Shown one piece after another: positions 43,203 through 49,454 of a stretch of 52,664 bases of DNA. Position 1 is the first letter of the stretch; each line of letters begins with the position of its first letter. Source of the DNA: Alphaproteobacteria bacterium. Its GTDB lineage: Bacteria > Pseudomonadota > Alphaproteobacteria > M2410. Under the pieces are notes generated by a model, which was not told where the DNA came from, did no database searches, and was given only the letters and a program-made list of their open reading frames with translations. Both the position numbers and the translations under genes were made by a program. The stretch covers positions 1 through 52,664 of the forward strand of contig JAUWTJ010000023.1 in NCBI GenBank assembly GCA_030614785.1, written 5' to 3'.

Positions 43203-44498
43203 CTACTCTCCGAAAACGCGCTTGAAGATCGTGTCGACCTGTTTGGTATGATAGTCGAGGTTGAACTTTGAGGCGATCTCATCATTGCTCAGGTATTTGC
43301 CAACTTCCTCATCGGCCTGCAACAGGTCAAGGAAATTGCCTTCGCCGCGCCAGACCGGCATGGCATTGCGCTGCACGAGGCGGTACGCATCCTCGCGCGA
43401 GCAGCCTGCCTGAGTGAGGGCCAAAAGCACGCGCTGGGAATGAACAAGGCCGCCAAGGCGGTCGAGGTTCTTCTGCATGTTTTCAGGGTAAACCAGCAGG
43501 TTCTTGATCACGCCGGTGAGCCGGGCCAGCGCAAAGTCGAGGGTAACCGTGGCATCCGGGCCAATGCCGCGCTCGACAGACGAGTGCGAAATATCCCGCT
43601 CGTGCCACAGGGCCACGTTTTCCATCGCCGGGATTGCTGTCATGCGGACAAGGCGGGCAAGGCCCGTGAGGTTTTCCGTCAGGATCGGGTTGCGCTTGTG
43701 CGGCATGGCAGAAGAGCCTTTTTGACCCTCGGAAAAAAACTCCTCAACTTCAAGGACTTCCGTACGCTGAAGATGACGAATTTCGGTGGCAACCCGCTCG
43801 ATGGAACTGGCGATCACACCGAGCGTGGCAAAGAACATGGCGTGACGGTCGCGCGGAATTACCTGTGTCGAGACCGGCTCGGCCTCCAGCCCAAGGGCTT
43901 TGGCGACATGTTCTTCAACGCGCGGGTCGATATTGGCGAAGGTGCCGACGGCGCCGGAAATTGCGCAGGTCGCAATATCCTTACGGGCGGCGAGGAGCCT
44001 GATCTTGTTGCGTTCGAATTCGGCATAGGCCTGGGCCATTTTGAGGCCAAAGGTCGTGGGTTCGGCGTGGATACCGTGGCTCCGACCGATGCAAACCGTA
44101 TCCTTGTGCGCCATCGCCTGGGTCTTGATGGCGGCAAGCAGCTCATCCAGATCAGCCAGAAGGATGTCGGACGCGCGCACCAATTGGACATTGAAACAGG
44201 TGTCGAGCACATCCGAGGAGGTCATGCCCTGGTGGACGAAGCGGGCTTCATCCCCGACGTGTTCGGCGAGACTGGTCAGGAACGCGATAACGTCGTGTTT
44301 GACCTCGCGTTCGATCTCGTCAATCCGGTCGACCTCAAAGCCGCCACGTTCCCAGACGGCTTTTGCGGCTTCCCTGGGGACAACGCCGAGCTCGGCCTGG
44401 GCGTCCATGGCGTGGGCTTCGATTTCAAACCAGATCTGAAATCGGCTCTCGGGCTCCCAAAGGGCGGCCATTTCCGGCCGTGTATAACGAGGAATCAT
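43203..44498 (-). CDS. purB: Adenylosuccinate lyase
   Basis: A 431-residue fumarase/aspartase-superfamily enzyme acting twice in purine synthesis (SAICAR to AICAR, adenylosuccinate to AMP). The flexible loop signature is GQKGSSAMPHKRNP, with the catalytic Ser; GRSHGIHAEPTTFG holds the catalytic His. Length is normal. The purine operon thus continues across the zeta gene with the same orientation as purC. Confidence 0.97.
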   Translation of the reverse strand: MIPRYTRPEMAALWEPESRFQIWFEIEAHAMDAQAELGVVPREAAKAVWERGGFEVDRIDEIEREVKHDVIAFLTSLAEHVGDEARFVHQGMTSSDVLDTCFNVQLVRASDILLADLDELLAAIKTQAMAHKDTVCIGRSHGIHAEPTTFGLKMAQAYAEFERNKIRLLAARKDIATCAISGAVGTFANIDPRVEEHVAKALGLEAEPVSTQVIPRDRHAMFFATLGVIASSIERVATEIRHLQRTEVLEVEEFFSEGQKGSSAMPHKRNPILTENLTGLARLVRMTAIPAMENVALWHERDISHSSVERGIGPDATVTLDFALARLTGVIKNLLVYPENMQKNLDRLGGLVHSQRVLLALTQAGCSREDAYRLVQRNAMPVWRGEGNFLDLLQADEEVGKYLSNDEIASKFNLDYHTKQVDTIFKRVFGE

Positions 44499-44586: not shown

Positions 44587-46638
44587 CTACAAACTCACCC
44601 GAACACCCATCGCAAAGAACCGTTCTTCGCCGGGGAAATAGCGATGACTGCCAAAGGCAAAGTCGGCTCTGTCCGCATACGCTGTATCGGCGAGGTTGAG
44701 GATGCGACCGTAGACCGAGAAGTTCTCATTCAACTTGTAGCTGGCTCTCAGATTAAAGAGGTCGTGGCCATCGTATTTGTGGAGGTTGGATTCATCGGTG
44801 AAGTACTCGTCCATGTGAACCCATTCGAGTTCAGTGCGAAGCGCTTCGACAGGTGTCCAGCCAAGTCGGACATTGGCGAGAAATTTCGGCGCGGTGTCGA
44901 TGTCGTTCCCGTCCTGGATACTCAAATGATCAAACGCATAGGTGTGCTTTGCGTAGGACAGAGCACCGCGGATGTCGACGGTTTCATGCAGGTCGGCAAG
45001 GAAGCTGAGCTCAATGCCAGCGTGTTCGGTCTTGCCATCGGATACATTGAGGCCATTCGAATCTCTGAAGAAGTAATTGTCCTTACGCATGACATATCCG
45101 GTCAATTCAAATTGAACGGGTCCCTCAGACCCCCGCAGTCCTGCTTCAATGCTGTCAACAATTTCAGGGTCAGCATCTCCGGCGATCTGTTTGAACTGAA
45201 GACGGTAGAGGTCTGTTGTCTGCGGCGCGCGCTGGCCTCTTGCATAAAGAGCAAAGAGCGTCAGGTCCTCGCTGAGTTGATGCGTGATGCCCAGTTTTGG
45301 TGTGGCTGTGGTGAAATTATCGGAACGGTCGGCAACACGTTGATAGCGTTTCGTTGGATCGAGAAAGGTATCGGCCTTGTTGTCGTAGTCGTAGCTGGTC
45401 AGATCGACGCGCAAGCCTGCCGTTACCCGAGTTTTCTTATTGATTTCCCATTCCGTGTGGACATAGGGAGAGGCTGTGACTGCTTCGACTTCATAGTCGT
45501 AGTGCGTTCCGGTCACGAAGCTGAACAGATCCGGTTCATCCTGAACTTCACTCAGGAAGCCGTCGGTGTACTCAAGATCCAAACCTGCGATGATGATATT
45601 CTCGCCGCTTTCCTTGTAGAGACGTGATTGCACACCGAAGCTCTTGTGGCCGTTCTGCTCAAGTGATTTTGCCGGCAGGAAGTGCATCATGAAGTCCATG
45701 TCGGTCTTGCGGGCATAGGGCGTGATGGTCAGTGTCGTGTCACTGGAGAGCTGACGGTCCCAGCGCAGGTAGGCGCGAATGGCATGCGCATCACGAAAAG
45801 CTTCCGGGTTGGGGTTGGATTTGGCCAGCGCCTCGTCCCTGTAGGCCTCGAAGCCTTCAATAAAACCGGCGGTCTCCTGATTGAGATTGTTAAACGAAAC
45901 GACAAAGGTAAAACTGTCCTGGCCATTGTCCCAATCGGTGCGGAGCGTTGCCTTTTGCTGGTCATAACCGGAAGCGTCGCGCCAGCCGCCATCATGTTTC
46001 AGCGTCACGGCCAGAACACCGTTATGCTCGTCGCCAGGAAAGCGGGTCGTAAGCTTGCCGACAACCTGGTCGTGCGAGCCCCATGACAGGTCGTAAGTCG
46101 AGCTGTCGAGGTCTCCGGGTGCCGACGTCAGGACGTTAACGAGGCCGTGAACCGCGTTGGAGCCATAGAGCGCGCTGCCGGGCCCACGGATAACCTCGAT
46201 GCGCCCCGCCTGCTCGGTATGGGCTTCAAATAGTCCATTGAGATTGGCAAAGCCTGACGAGCGCAGCGGAATGCCGTCTTCGAGATAGAGGAACGATCCG
46301 GCTCCTGCGCCTGCCGTCAAGACAGGCGAGCGGATGGATGTCAAATGCTCCTGGCCATTGCCGTGCTGGATGTTGACACCAGGCAAACGGTTGAGGATGT
46401 CGGAGACATGTTCCGCCGCGATGAAACCAACATCATCAATCGAAGCCGCATTGCCGGCGTGCTCGCTAAGAGGCGCGGCCCTGTGGGTTGCCGTGATTAT
46501 GATCTCTTCAACTGAGTCCGGTGAGTCTGGCGTTTGTGCATTGGCGGACACAGGCATGAGCGACAGGCAAAGGCCCGTCGTTGCCATTGCGAGATATCGG
46601 GTAGTCTTTTTATTTTTGTTGATCGACATTTGACACAT
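44587..46638 (-). CDS. TonB-dependent outer-membrane receptor
   Basis: A 683-residue receptor with signal peptide (about 32 residues, ending SANAQT), a TonB box-like EEIIITATHR, a plug domain (DILNRLPGVNIQHGNGQ, EVIRGPGSALYGSNAVHG) and a beta-barrel ending in a C-terminal hydrophobic strand (FFAMGVRVSL, last residue Leu rather than Phe). The ATG at 46638 shares one base with the stop of the dehydrogenase gene (TGATG), so translation is probably coupled; ATG at 46629 is an alternative. Cargo is not predictable from sequence, but linkage suggests a link to PQQ or sugars. Confidence 0.9.
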   Translation of the reverse strand: MCQMSINKNKKTTRYLAMATTGLCLSLMPVSANAQTPDSPDSVEEIIITATHRAAPLSEHAGNAASIDDVGFIAAEHVSDILNRLPGVNIQHGNGQEHLTSIRSPVLTAGAGAGSFLYLEDGIPLRSSGFANLNGLFEAHTEQAGRIEVIRGPGSALYGSNAVHGLVNVLTSAPGDLDSSTYDLSWGSHDQVVGKLTTRFPGDEHNGVLAVTLKHDGGWRDASGYDQQKATLRTDWDNGQDSFTFVVSFNNLNQETAGFIEGFEAYRDEALAKSNPNPEAFRDAHAIRAYLRWDRQLSSDTTLTITPYARKTDMDFMMHFLPAKSLEQNGHKSFGVQSRLYKESGENIIIAGLDLEYTDGFLSEVQDEPDLFSFVTGTHYDYEVEAVTASPYVHTEWEINKKTRVTAGLRVDLTSYDYDNKADTFLDPTKRYQRVADRSDNFTTATPKLGITHQLSEDLTLFALYARGQRAPQTTDLYRLQFKQIAGDADPEIVDSIEAGLRGSEGPVQFELTGYVMRKDNYFFRDSNGLNVSDGKTEHAGIELSFLADLHETVDIRGALSYAKHTYAFDHLSIQDGNDIDTAPKFLANVRLGWTPVEALRTELEWVHMDEYFTDESNLHKYDGHDLFNLRASYKLNENFSVYGRILNLADTAYADRADFAFGSHRYFPGEERFFAMGVRVSL

Positions 46639-47879
46639 CACTTTTCGGTTTTTGTTATTTTCCAGATCCGACCCTTCATGGAGTCGGACACGTAGAGCGC
46701 GCCGTCCGGTCCTTCGGCGACGCCAACGGGGCGATAGACTGCTTCGCGCGAGTCAGCCAGTTCCTCGTCGCCGCTGAAGCCGGTGGCGATATCGATCGAC
46801 GGGCCGTTGATTTCCCCCACCTTGAACGGGACAAAGACGACGCGGTAACCCTGCTGAGGCTTTGGTGCCCGGTTCCAGGACCCGTGGAAGGCGATAAAGG
46901 CGCCGCCCTTCATGGTCGGGCTGAAGGCGCCTGACTTGTAAAAGATGAGATCGTTCGGCGCCCAGTGGGCCGGGAAGGTACGGATCGGCTTTTTGTATTT
47001 GTTCTTGGGAGCTTTGGTTTTGCCGTCGCCGCCATATTCGGGACCTTGCATGCGTTTTTTCTTTGCCGGATCGAAATAGGTGAAGGGCCAGCCCAGATTG
47101 GCGCCGTCGTGTACGTAATGAAACTCTTCGGCTGGCAATTCCGCATTGTCATCGACAGTAAAGTGATCGGCCCAGAGGGTGCCGAGCTGATCGCGGCCAT
47201 GTTGCACAAGGTGCAGGCCGCCGCCTGGATGCCAGGCAATGGCCATGGCGTTGCGCAAGCCGGTCACATAACGATGCCCGTCTGCTTCCTGGGTCTGTCC
47301 CGTTCGGGCCGCATCAAAGCGCCAGACGCCTGCCTGGCGATCAAGATGAGGGCAAGGGTCTTGCCCCGGCGAGCCGGCAGAGCGTGGCTGCACCTGACAG
47401 GCATTCGAAGGCGCGCCGACATTGACATAGATGTGGCCTTCGTCGTCGAAGGTGAACGTCTTGGCGGCGTGCTGGCGCTGTTTGATGAAGCCGGAAATGA
47501 CGCTTTCAATATCGCCGGTTGGCAGAAGTGCGCCGTCCGAGAGCTTTGCCCGGAAAATTTCGACATTGCTTGAGAAGTAGAGATAACCATCATGGATATC
47601 GACTTCCGTTTCCGCTTCAGACGGAAACTCCTCAACGACATCGGCCTTGCTGTCGCCATCGGTGTCCCGCAGCGCCATGATGCCCTGATCGCCGCGCATG
47701 GCGACATAAACGTCGCCGTTATTCCTGACAACGAGATGGCGGGCGCGTCCAAGATTATCGGCAAAGATCGTTGCGGAGTAGCCTTCGGCCAGCGTGATCC
47801 CGATATCGGTTTCTTCGGCATTGGCTCCGATGGCAACAGAGCAAACTATGGCGCTGGCAAGCGCGAGAACCTTCAACAT
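46638..47879 (-). CDS. PQQ-dependent sugar dehydrogenase-like protein (L-sorbosone/glucose dehydrogenase family)
   Basis: A 413-residue secreted beta-propeller protein. The signal peptide covers about residues 1-21 (cleavage after GANA). Blocks include LAEGYSATIFADNLG, the EVDIHDGYLYFSSNVEIFR region, GLRNAMAIAWHPGG and VGVAEGPDGALYVSD, typical of soluble PQQ sugar/sorbosone dehydrogenases, which act in the periplasm and use calcium and PQQ. No PQQ synthesis genes are in the window. It is followed by the receptor gene, overlapping its start, and lies 25 bp from radC. Confidence 0.87.
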   Translation of the reverse strand: MLKVLALASAIVCSVAIGANAEETDIGITLAEGYSATIFADNLGRARHLVVRNNGDVYVAMRGDQGIMALRDTDGDSKADVVEEFPSEAETEVDIHDGYLYFSSNVEIFRAKLSDGALLPTGDIESVISGFIKQRQHAAKTFTFDDEGHIYVNVGAPSNACQVQPRSAGSPGQDPCPHLDRQAGVWRFDAARTGQTQEADGHRYVTGLRNAMAIAWHPGGGLHLVQHGRDQLGTLWADHFTVDDNAELPAEEFHYVHDGANLGWPFTYFDPAKKKRMQGPEYGGDGKTKAPKNKYKKPIRTFPAHWAPNDLIFYKSGAFSPTMKGGAFIAFHGSWNRAPKPQQGYRVVFVPFKVGEINGPSIDIATGFSGDEELADSREAVYRPVGVAEGPDGALYVSDSMKGRIWKITKTEK

Positions 47880-47904: not shown

Positions 47905-48600
47905 CTAGATCAAACCCAATGACTTGAAACTGACGTGCTCGCCCATTCCGATCACCAGATGATCGTGGACAGAAACACCAACCGGTTGGCCTGCGTCAAG
48001 GATTTTGCGGGTCATTTGAATGTCGGCCTTTGACGGGGTCGGGTCGCCGCTGGGATGGTTGTGCACCAGAATGATGGCCGACGCGCCCAGCTCGAGCGCG
48101 CGTTTGACGACTTCGCGTGGATAGACCGGCGTATGGTCGATGGTGCCTTCCTGCTGAACTTCATCGGCGATGATCTTGTTCTTGCGATCGAGGAAGAGGA
48201 TACGGAAGATCTCTTTTTCATTGTGGGCCATGCTGGCCTGGCAATAATCCAGTAATGCCGTCCAGTTTGAAATTGCCGGGCGGTCCATCATCTTGCCCTG
48301 GGCGAGTTTGACGGATGCGGCCTGAACGACCTTCAATTCAAGCGCGACCTTGTCGCTGACGCCGGGGACCTCCATCAAGCGCTGGTTTGGCGCACTAATG
48401 ACACCGGCGAACGAGCCGAAGCGCTCAATCAGATCCTTTGCCAGAGGTTTGACGTCGCGCCTCGGAATGGCGCGAAACAGCACCAGCTCCAGAAGCTCGT
48501 AATCGTGCAGACCGTCGCTGCCCGATTTGGCAAACCTCTGCCGCAACCGGTCACGGTGGCCGACATGGTGGGGTTCAGGTTTCTTCGCCGATGCGGTCAC
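47905..48600 (-). CDS. radC: RadC-family JAB-domain protein
   Basis: A 231-residue RadC protein with HhH-like start (HRDRLRQRFAKSGSDGLHD), LMEVPGVSDKVALELK, and the JAB/MPN metalloprotease-like motif in LVHNHPSGDPTPSKADIQMT (HxH and Asp). GTG at 48600 is chosen: it gives the usual RadC length and GGGGA lies 8 bp upstream; the frame extends farther without homology. Despite the old name its repair role is doubtful. Confidence 0.93.
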   Translation of the reverse strand: MTASAKKPEPHHVGHRDRLRQRFAKSGSDGLHDYELLELVLFRAIPRRDVKPLAKDLIERFGSFAGVISAPNQRLMEVPGVSDKVALELKVVQAASVKLAQGKMMDRPAISNWTALLDYCQASMAHNEKEIFRILFLDRKNKIIADEVQQEGTIDHTPVYPREVVKRALELGASAIILVHNHPSGDPTPSKADIQMTRKILDAGQPVGVSVHDHLVIGMGEHVSFKSLGLI

Positions 48601-48629
48601 GTGCCAGGTCCCCGTTCTTGTGATGCACT

Positions 48630-49454
48630 CTAGCCTTCGAAGGCAGGCTTGTGGAGACCAGCGGGGGAGGTGGTGAAGATTTCCACACCGTCCTGTGTGA
48701 CGCCGACGGAGTGTTCGAACTGGGCGGTGAGGGAGCGGTCGCGCGTCACGGCTGTCCAGCCGTCGCTCTTCATGCGCACTGCTGATTTGCCAAGATTGAT
48801 CATCGGCTCGACGGTAAAGAACATGCCCTCCTTGAGCAGTGTGCCGTGGCCGCGCTGACCAAAATGCATGATGTTCGGAGTGTCGTGAAACACGCGGCCG
48901 ATGCCGTGGCCACAAAAATCGCGGACAATGGAATAGCGCTGCGCCTCGGCATATTCCTGAATGGCGGCGCCAATGTCGCCGGTGGTCGCGCCTGGCTTGA
49001 TCTCGGCAATGCCCAGCATCATGGCCTCATAGGTCGCATCAACCAGCTTGCGCGCCTTGAGCGGTACATCGCCGACGAGGAACGTGCGACTTGAATCGCC
49101 GTGCCAGCCATCGACGATGTAGGTGACGTCGATGTTGATGATTTCACCTGACTTGAGAGGCTTGTCGTTGGGGATGCCGTGGCAGACCACATGATTGATC
49201 GAGGTGCAAATCGATTTGGTATAGCCGCGATAGTCAATCGTCGCGCTGAACGCGCCGAGGTCCATGCCATGTTGGTAACAAAACCTGTCGAGTTCGCCGG
49301 TGGTGACACCAGGTTTCACAAGCGGTGTCACAGCATCAAGGGTCAGCGCGGCGACACGGCCAGCCTTGCGCATGCCTTCAAAGTCTTCCGGCTCGTGGAT
49401 CTTGATCCGGCCATTGTTCACATCAGGCGAGGCGGCGGCTTCGATATAGGTCAT
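48630..49454 (-). CDS. map: Methionine aminopeptidase, type I
   Basis: A 274-residue metalloenzyme that trims the initiator Met. The pita-bread fold metal ligands are visible: Asp in INIDVTYIVDGWHGDSSRTF, His in FCGHGIGRVFHD, and Glu in FTVEPMINLG and QFEHSVGVTQDG. Length fits type I. It lies 29 bp upstream of radC on the same strand and probably cotranscribes with it. Confidence 0.96.
   Translation of the reverse strand: MTYIEAAASPDVNNGRIKIHEPEDFEGMRKAGRVAALTLDAVTPLVKPGVTTGELDRFCYQHGMDLGAFSATIDYRGYTKSICTSINHVVCHGIPNDKPLKSGEIINIDVTYIVDGWHGDSSRTFLVGDVPLKARKLVDATYEAMMLGIAEIKPGATTGDIGAAIQEYAEAQRYSIVRDFCGHGIGRVFHDTPNIMHFGQRGHGTLLKEGMFFTVEPMINLGKSAVRMKSDGWTAVTRDRSLTAQFEHSVGVTQDGVEIFTTSPAGLHKPAFEG

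Follow-up and report, generated by a model that had tools for sequence, protein, structure and literature searches.

PqqU (YncD) is a TonB-dependent PQQ transporter of Escherichia coli in which Tyr99, Arg304, Arg365, and Arg536 interact with PQQ, Tyr99 of the plug by stacking and Arg304 and Arg365 of the barrel by binding carboxylates (PMC12124388). A survey that used Tyr99 (or another aromatic residue), Arg304, and Arg365 as its signature found PqqU in a single alphaproteobacterium, and the class was held to consist mainly of PQQ producers (PMC12124388). In the literature open without subscription, our search turned up no further TonB receptor family specific to PQQ. Among PQQ enzymes, the AA12 pyranose dehydrogenase of Coprinopsis cinerea has its PQQ and calcium residues at Arg273, His363, Arg430, Asn431, Asp451, His539, His560, Trp563, Asn564, and Arg621 (PMC6881789). 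Here, we compare these systems with an alphaproteobacterial locus in which a predicted sugar dehydrogenase gene overlaps the gene of a TonB-dependent receptor.

The locus lies on a 52,664-nucleotide stretch of DNA (the window; G000:C12) that is part of a 3.86-Mb assembly with 99.1% completeness. On the minus strand, the gene order is map, radC (in an open reading frame [ORF] at 47905..48915), the dehydrogenase (46638..47879), the receptor (44587..46638), and, 88 bases further downstream, purB (43203..44498). The dehydrogenase has 413 amino acids with an N-terminal signal peptide and is predicted to be periplasmic, and the receptor has 683 amino acids when read from its ATG, with a GTG at 46641 as another possible start. 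The minus-strand junction reads AAAAGTGATGTG, in which the final A of the TGA stop (46640-46638) is also the first base of the ATG start (46638-46636), so that the TGATG overlap (46636..46640) described in the initial annotation is real. One-base stop/start overlaps are frequent in bacterial operons and unremarkable by themselves; this one suggests translational coupling of the two genes. The dehydrogenase gene showed no composition-based signal of horizontal transfer, its GC3 of 0.68 being similar to that of the neighboring genes.

The dehydrogenase belongs to the GSDH family (PF07995, with a score over the Pfam cutoff). An AlphaFold model built from four relatives reached a pLDDT of 63 (moderate), and its best structural matches were AA12 enzymes (6jt5, Z of 31.9; 6i1q, Z of 30.6), whereas all non-AA12 structures, including bacterial Asd and sGDH, gave Z values of ≤25.0. 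In the alignment, all ten AA12 PQQ and calcium residues are kept, as Arg47, His137, Arg209, Asn210, Asp230, His305, His332, Trp335, Asn336, and Arg383. His137 (47469..47471, minus strand) is the counterpart of the catalytic His363 of the Coprinopsis enzyme and of His144 of sGDH (PMC6881789), and the stretch His332-Gly-Ser-Trp335-Asn336 (46872..46886, minus strand) provides the counterparts of the AA12 PQQ ligands His560, Trp563, and Asn564. PF07995 membership and these ten residues uphold the earlier assignment to a PQQ-using family, and the prediction from sequence that the enzyme is PQQ dependent is well supported. The closest relatives that we found come from another alphaproteobacterium (52% identity) and from Bacteroidota (47 to 49%). 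Four relatives (L035, L036, L038, and L122) have a C-terminal c-type cytochrome domain that the window protein lacks, and a relative from Novosphingobium is annotated as a c-type cytochrome. One of these loci, L035 from Lewinellaceae, contains two copies of the relative ∼3 kb apart.

The window's genome contains at least three further PQQ enzymes. These are a type II quinohemoprotein alcohol dehydrogenase, which scores 785 bits against 1kv9 and has vicinal cysteines and a heme motif; a quinoprotein of the glucose/quinate family; and an Asd/YliI-like aldose dehydrogenase. The glucose/quinate-family protein (L127:7249-9246, on G000:C71) has no N-terminal membrane domain and is apparently a periplasmic lipoprotein. 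Assembly-wide searches of this 99.1% complete genome gave no match to PqqC or PqqD, and for PqqE nothing over the cutoff of 381, with only other radical-SAM proteins at ≤78 bits. The absence of pqq synthesis genes, initially noted for the window, thus extends to the whole genome for PqqC, PqqD, and PqqE, and the full biosynthesis operon that had been named beforehand as an argument against PQQ scavenging was not found. Given that PqqC and PqqD have no hits and PqqE only hits far below its cutoff, the quinoproteins of this genome would require external PQQ if they are to work.

To relate the receptor to PQQ use and synthesis, we took a census of 142 genomes of Alphaproteobacteria, in which most families are represented by a single genome. 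Users were defined by the presence of a PF01011 quinoprotein and makers by the presence of pqqC, the proxy for the PQQ pathway outside the window's own genome. The pqqC status covers this sample, and a further 15 receptor genomes stand outside the count; several members of the receptor family come from incomplete assemblies. The family is sharply bounded: orthologs with E values of ≤1e-156 and 43 to 60% identity occur in 12 of the 142 genomes, and after a gap there follows one match, at 2e-86 and 31% identity, from a sister clade. Score limits were fixed when each search was made, and the 31% match was excluded after the first count; with it included (13/142, P = 1.3e-12), the conclusion is the same. 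Of the sampled genomes, 26 have pqqC, 45 have PF01011 quinoproteins, and 56 have Asd-like enzymes. All 12 receptor genomes contain PF01011 quinoproteins together with full-length PF07995 Asd-like enzymes, and none of them contains pqqC. Accordingly, the receptor is found in 12 of the 23 users that are not makers but in 0 of the 119 other genomes (P = 1.6e-11). Within the PF01011-positive genomes alone, the split is 12/23 nonmakers versus 0/22 makers (P = 7e-5), and 9/20 versus 0/22 when the window's family is counted once (P = 4e-4). This association is correlative and extends over nine families, with shared ancestry and ecology only partly controlled. The remaining 11 nonmaking users (G007, G011, G015, G042, G043, G045, G047, G070, G081, G096, and G102) lack the receptor, indicating that it is not the sole route to PQQ.

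We considered G042-type receptors (31 to 34% identity) as possible family members and rejected them, since they fall into the sister clade and have a plug without the family motif. The sister-clade receptors at L063, L110, L111, and L112 (G042, G265, G341, and G169, respectively) have Arg at the position of PqqU Arg365. G042 is itself a PQQ user without pqqC.

The census pattern would be expected if the receptor supplied PQQ, and we consider it to be probably an outer-membrane PQQ importer of a PQQ-using nonmaker, belonging to a family separate from PqqU. The initial annotation had offered a second reading, import of the sugar-type substrate, which can be broadened to any sugar-type or aromatic compound oxidized by the periplasmic dehydrogenases. 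Such a transporter would also be associated with quinoproteins, as the receptor is; it would fit the sugar dehydrogenase next door in the window's genome, and Asd-like enzymes are present in every receptor genome. Substrate import is, however, indifferent to PQQ synthesis and predicts the receptor in makers as well, but it was seen in 0/22 PF01011 makers and in 0 of the 8 makers with both enzyme types. Conditioning on quinoproteins removes the simplest confounder and thereby argues against substrate transport. With the adjacency to the dehydrogenase not being conserved either (see below), this second reading is disfavored, and we regard it as unlikely.

Three genomes from the window's family have the gene order radC-receptor-purB, with radC directly abutting the receptor gene and no dehydrogenase between them (in G002, purB lies beyond the stretch that was read). 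The receptors of these genomes cluster with the window receptor in the tree with moderate support. The receptor neighborhoods of 26 further alphaproteobacterial members contained no adjacent PQQ enzyme; the only one within reach was an Asd-like gene ∼8 kb off in a single genome. In several other families the receptor occupies a fixed genomic place near kdsD (fixed places were read at L052, L058, L060, L061, L062, L101, L103 to L106, and L108). Synteny and the receptor tree together suggest that the receptor is the resident gene and that the dehydrogenase was either inserted here or lost in the relatives. Since synteny shows the pairing to be peculiar to the window's genome, we dropped the gene pair as evidence for PQQ import. 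The original case for PQQ scavenging therefore stands in part: its argument from overlap and pairing fails, while the claim itself is supported by the phyletic distribution. That support comes from the comparison proposed at the outset, across genomes lacking pqq genes: within the 142 genomes, the receptor was confined to PQQ users that have no pqqC.

The receptor contains a plug (PF07715, 49 bits) and a barrel (PF00593, 136 bits), both over the Pfam cutoff; its single-sequence AlphaFold model had a pLDDT of 29. Residues 44 to 52 (EEIIITATH; 46483..46509, minus strand) form a segment that we take, from general knowledge of TonB-dependent receptors, to be TonB-box-like. The family is defined by a plug motif at residues 95 to 136, GQEHLTSIRSPVLTAGAGAGSFLYLEDGIPLRSSGFANLNGL (46231..46356, minus strand), which includes Gln96 and Ala111 at the positions of PqqU Gln84 and Tyr99, respectively. 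Its invariant set includes QEHLT-IRSPVL-GGAGAGS-FLYLEDG from this motif as well as Arg310, His319, Arg470, and Arg525. Gln is present at the position of PqqU Gln84 in 24 of the 28 family members, and all 28 have Arg at the position of Lys274 (Arg282 in the window receptor; 45793..45795, minus strand) and Tyr at the position of Tyr481 (Tyr478; 45205..45207, minus strand). The segment Arg310-His319 (45682..45711, minus strand; conserved as R-x-N/D-M-x-F-L-M-H-F) lies beside the Arg304-Gln310 contacts of PqqU. In contrast, the position of Tyr99 is occupied by Ala or Gly in all 28 members rather than by an aromatic residue, that of Arg304 mostly by Asn or Thr (also His, Gln, or Phe), that of Arg365 by Leu except for one Met and one Val, and that of Arg536 by Val or Glu. 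The window receptor scores 81.4 bits against the NCBIfam PqqU model NF041535, whose cutoff is 1200, and the tree separates the 28 family members from five PqqU sequences, with strong support for each of the two clades. The signature residues, the NF041535 score, and the separate clades rule out that the receptor is a PqqU ortholog. Among eight E. coli TonB receptors, the family profile nevertheless ranks PqqU first (223), ahead of BtuB (182), FecA (169), and CirA (162). Judged from these sequence comparisons, the family stands outside PqqU and yet may work like it. A Pseudoalteromonas sp. THAF3 replicon (L121:9983-12040) encodes an ortholog with 40.6% identity whose annotation says no more than TonB-dependent receptor, and this ortholog indicates that the family spans more than one class.

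Other ligands of TonB-dependent receptors have to be weighed against PQQ. The best NCBIfam scores of the receptor were to the general TonB-siderophore model (126 bits, cutoff of 223) and to B12, as might be expected if it took up a siderophore or another iron complex and the PQQ pattern were an ecological coincidence. Yet every curated NCBIfam cutoff is missed by far, no siderophore genes occur in the receptor neighborhoods that we read, and coincidence sits poorly with the P value of 1.6e-11, though shared ecology could confound it; an iron-complex receptor is thus an improbable explanation. A BtuB-type cobalamin transporter is suggested by BtuB being the second-best E. coli relative of the family. 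This appears very unlikely, as neither the window receptor gene nor those at 16 other family loci are accompanied by a cobalamin riboswitch, and one receptor genome (G021) has a separate riboswitch-bearing receptor 4 kb away, beside btuFCD-like genes. At that locus (L062:4094-8636), the riboswitch lies 5' of this different TonB receptor, amid btuF-, btuC-, and btuD-like genes. Finally, some TonB receptors take up lanthanides, a process linked to PQQ enzymes (PMC11996626), and the receptor could import a lanthanophore for lanthanide-dependent quinoproteins. However, the quinohemoprotein alcohol dehydrogenases from three receptor genomes carry WDYT at the metal site, as in the calcium type, instead of the lanthanide DxD, and lanthanide users normally make PQQ, whereas the receptor is in 0 of the 26 pqqC-positive genomes; we consider this role extremely improbable.

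Returning to PQQ as the favored ligand, TonB-driven uptake through the receptor would bring PQQ into the periplasm, where it could load the apo forms of the AA12-like dehydrogenase, the quinohemoprotein alcohol dehydrogenase, the glucose/quinate-family quinoprotein, and the Asd/YliI-like enzyme. The receptor family would bind PQQ by a set of residues partly unlike that of PqqU. The dehydrogenase gene would either have arrived in front of an already resident receptor gene in the window lineage or have disappeared from the related genomes, and its translation is probably coupled to that of the receptor. More generally, we lean toward the view that TonB-dependent PQQ import has a second receptor family besides PqqU that is widespread among Alphaproteobacteria, extends to at least one Pseudoalteromonas, and has binding-site residues of its own, and that many presumed alphaproteobacterial producers are scavengers. 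The published survey would miss this family, because its signature requires Tyr99 or another aromatic residue, Arg304, and Arg365. Of the 45 PF01011-bearing alphaproteobacterial genomes, 23 lack pqqC, and about half of these have the receptor family. If its members import PQQ, this would explain active dehydrogenases in nonmaking alphaproteobacteria, extend PQQ cross-feeding to a major bacterial class, provide a sequence marker for scavengers overlooked by the PqqU signature, and allow PqqU to be compared with an independent way of recognizing PQQ.

With regard to known systems, the window dehydrogenase is like the AA12 enzymes of Coprinopsis (6jt5) and Trichoderma (6i1q) in fold, at ∼20% identity, but it is bacterial and free-standing, without a cytochrome or cellulose-binding domain. 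With the bacterial soluble quinoprotein dehydrogenases Asd/YliI and sGDH it has the six-bladed PQQ propeller in common (Z of 23 to 25); it differs from them in the lower structural score and in its AA12-type His/Trp/Asn loop, where sGDH has Lys377. BtuB resembles the receptor family in being a TonB receptor and has the second-best score against its profile, but the window receptor reaches only 106 bits against the curated BtuB model (cutoff of 600) and has no riboswitch. PqqU has the TonB receptor architecture in common with the window family, and both occur in PQQ-using genomes. At about 22% identity between PqqU and the window receptor, the family keeps the PQQ-contact positions Gln84, Lys274 (as Arg), and Tyr481, and it occurs in Alphaproteobacteria, where PqqU itself has been reported from one genome only (PMC12124388).
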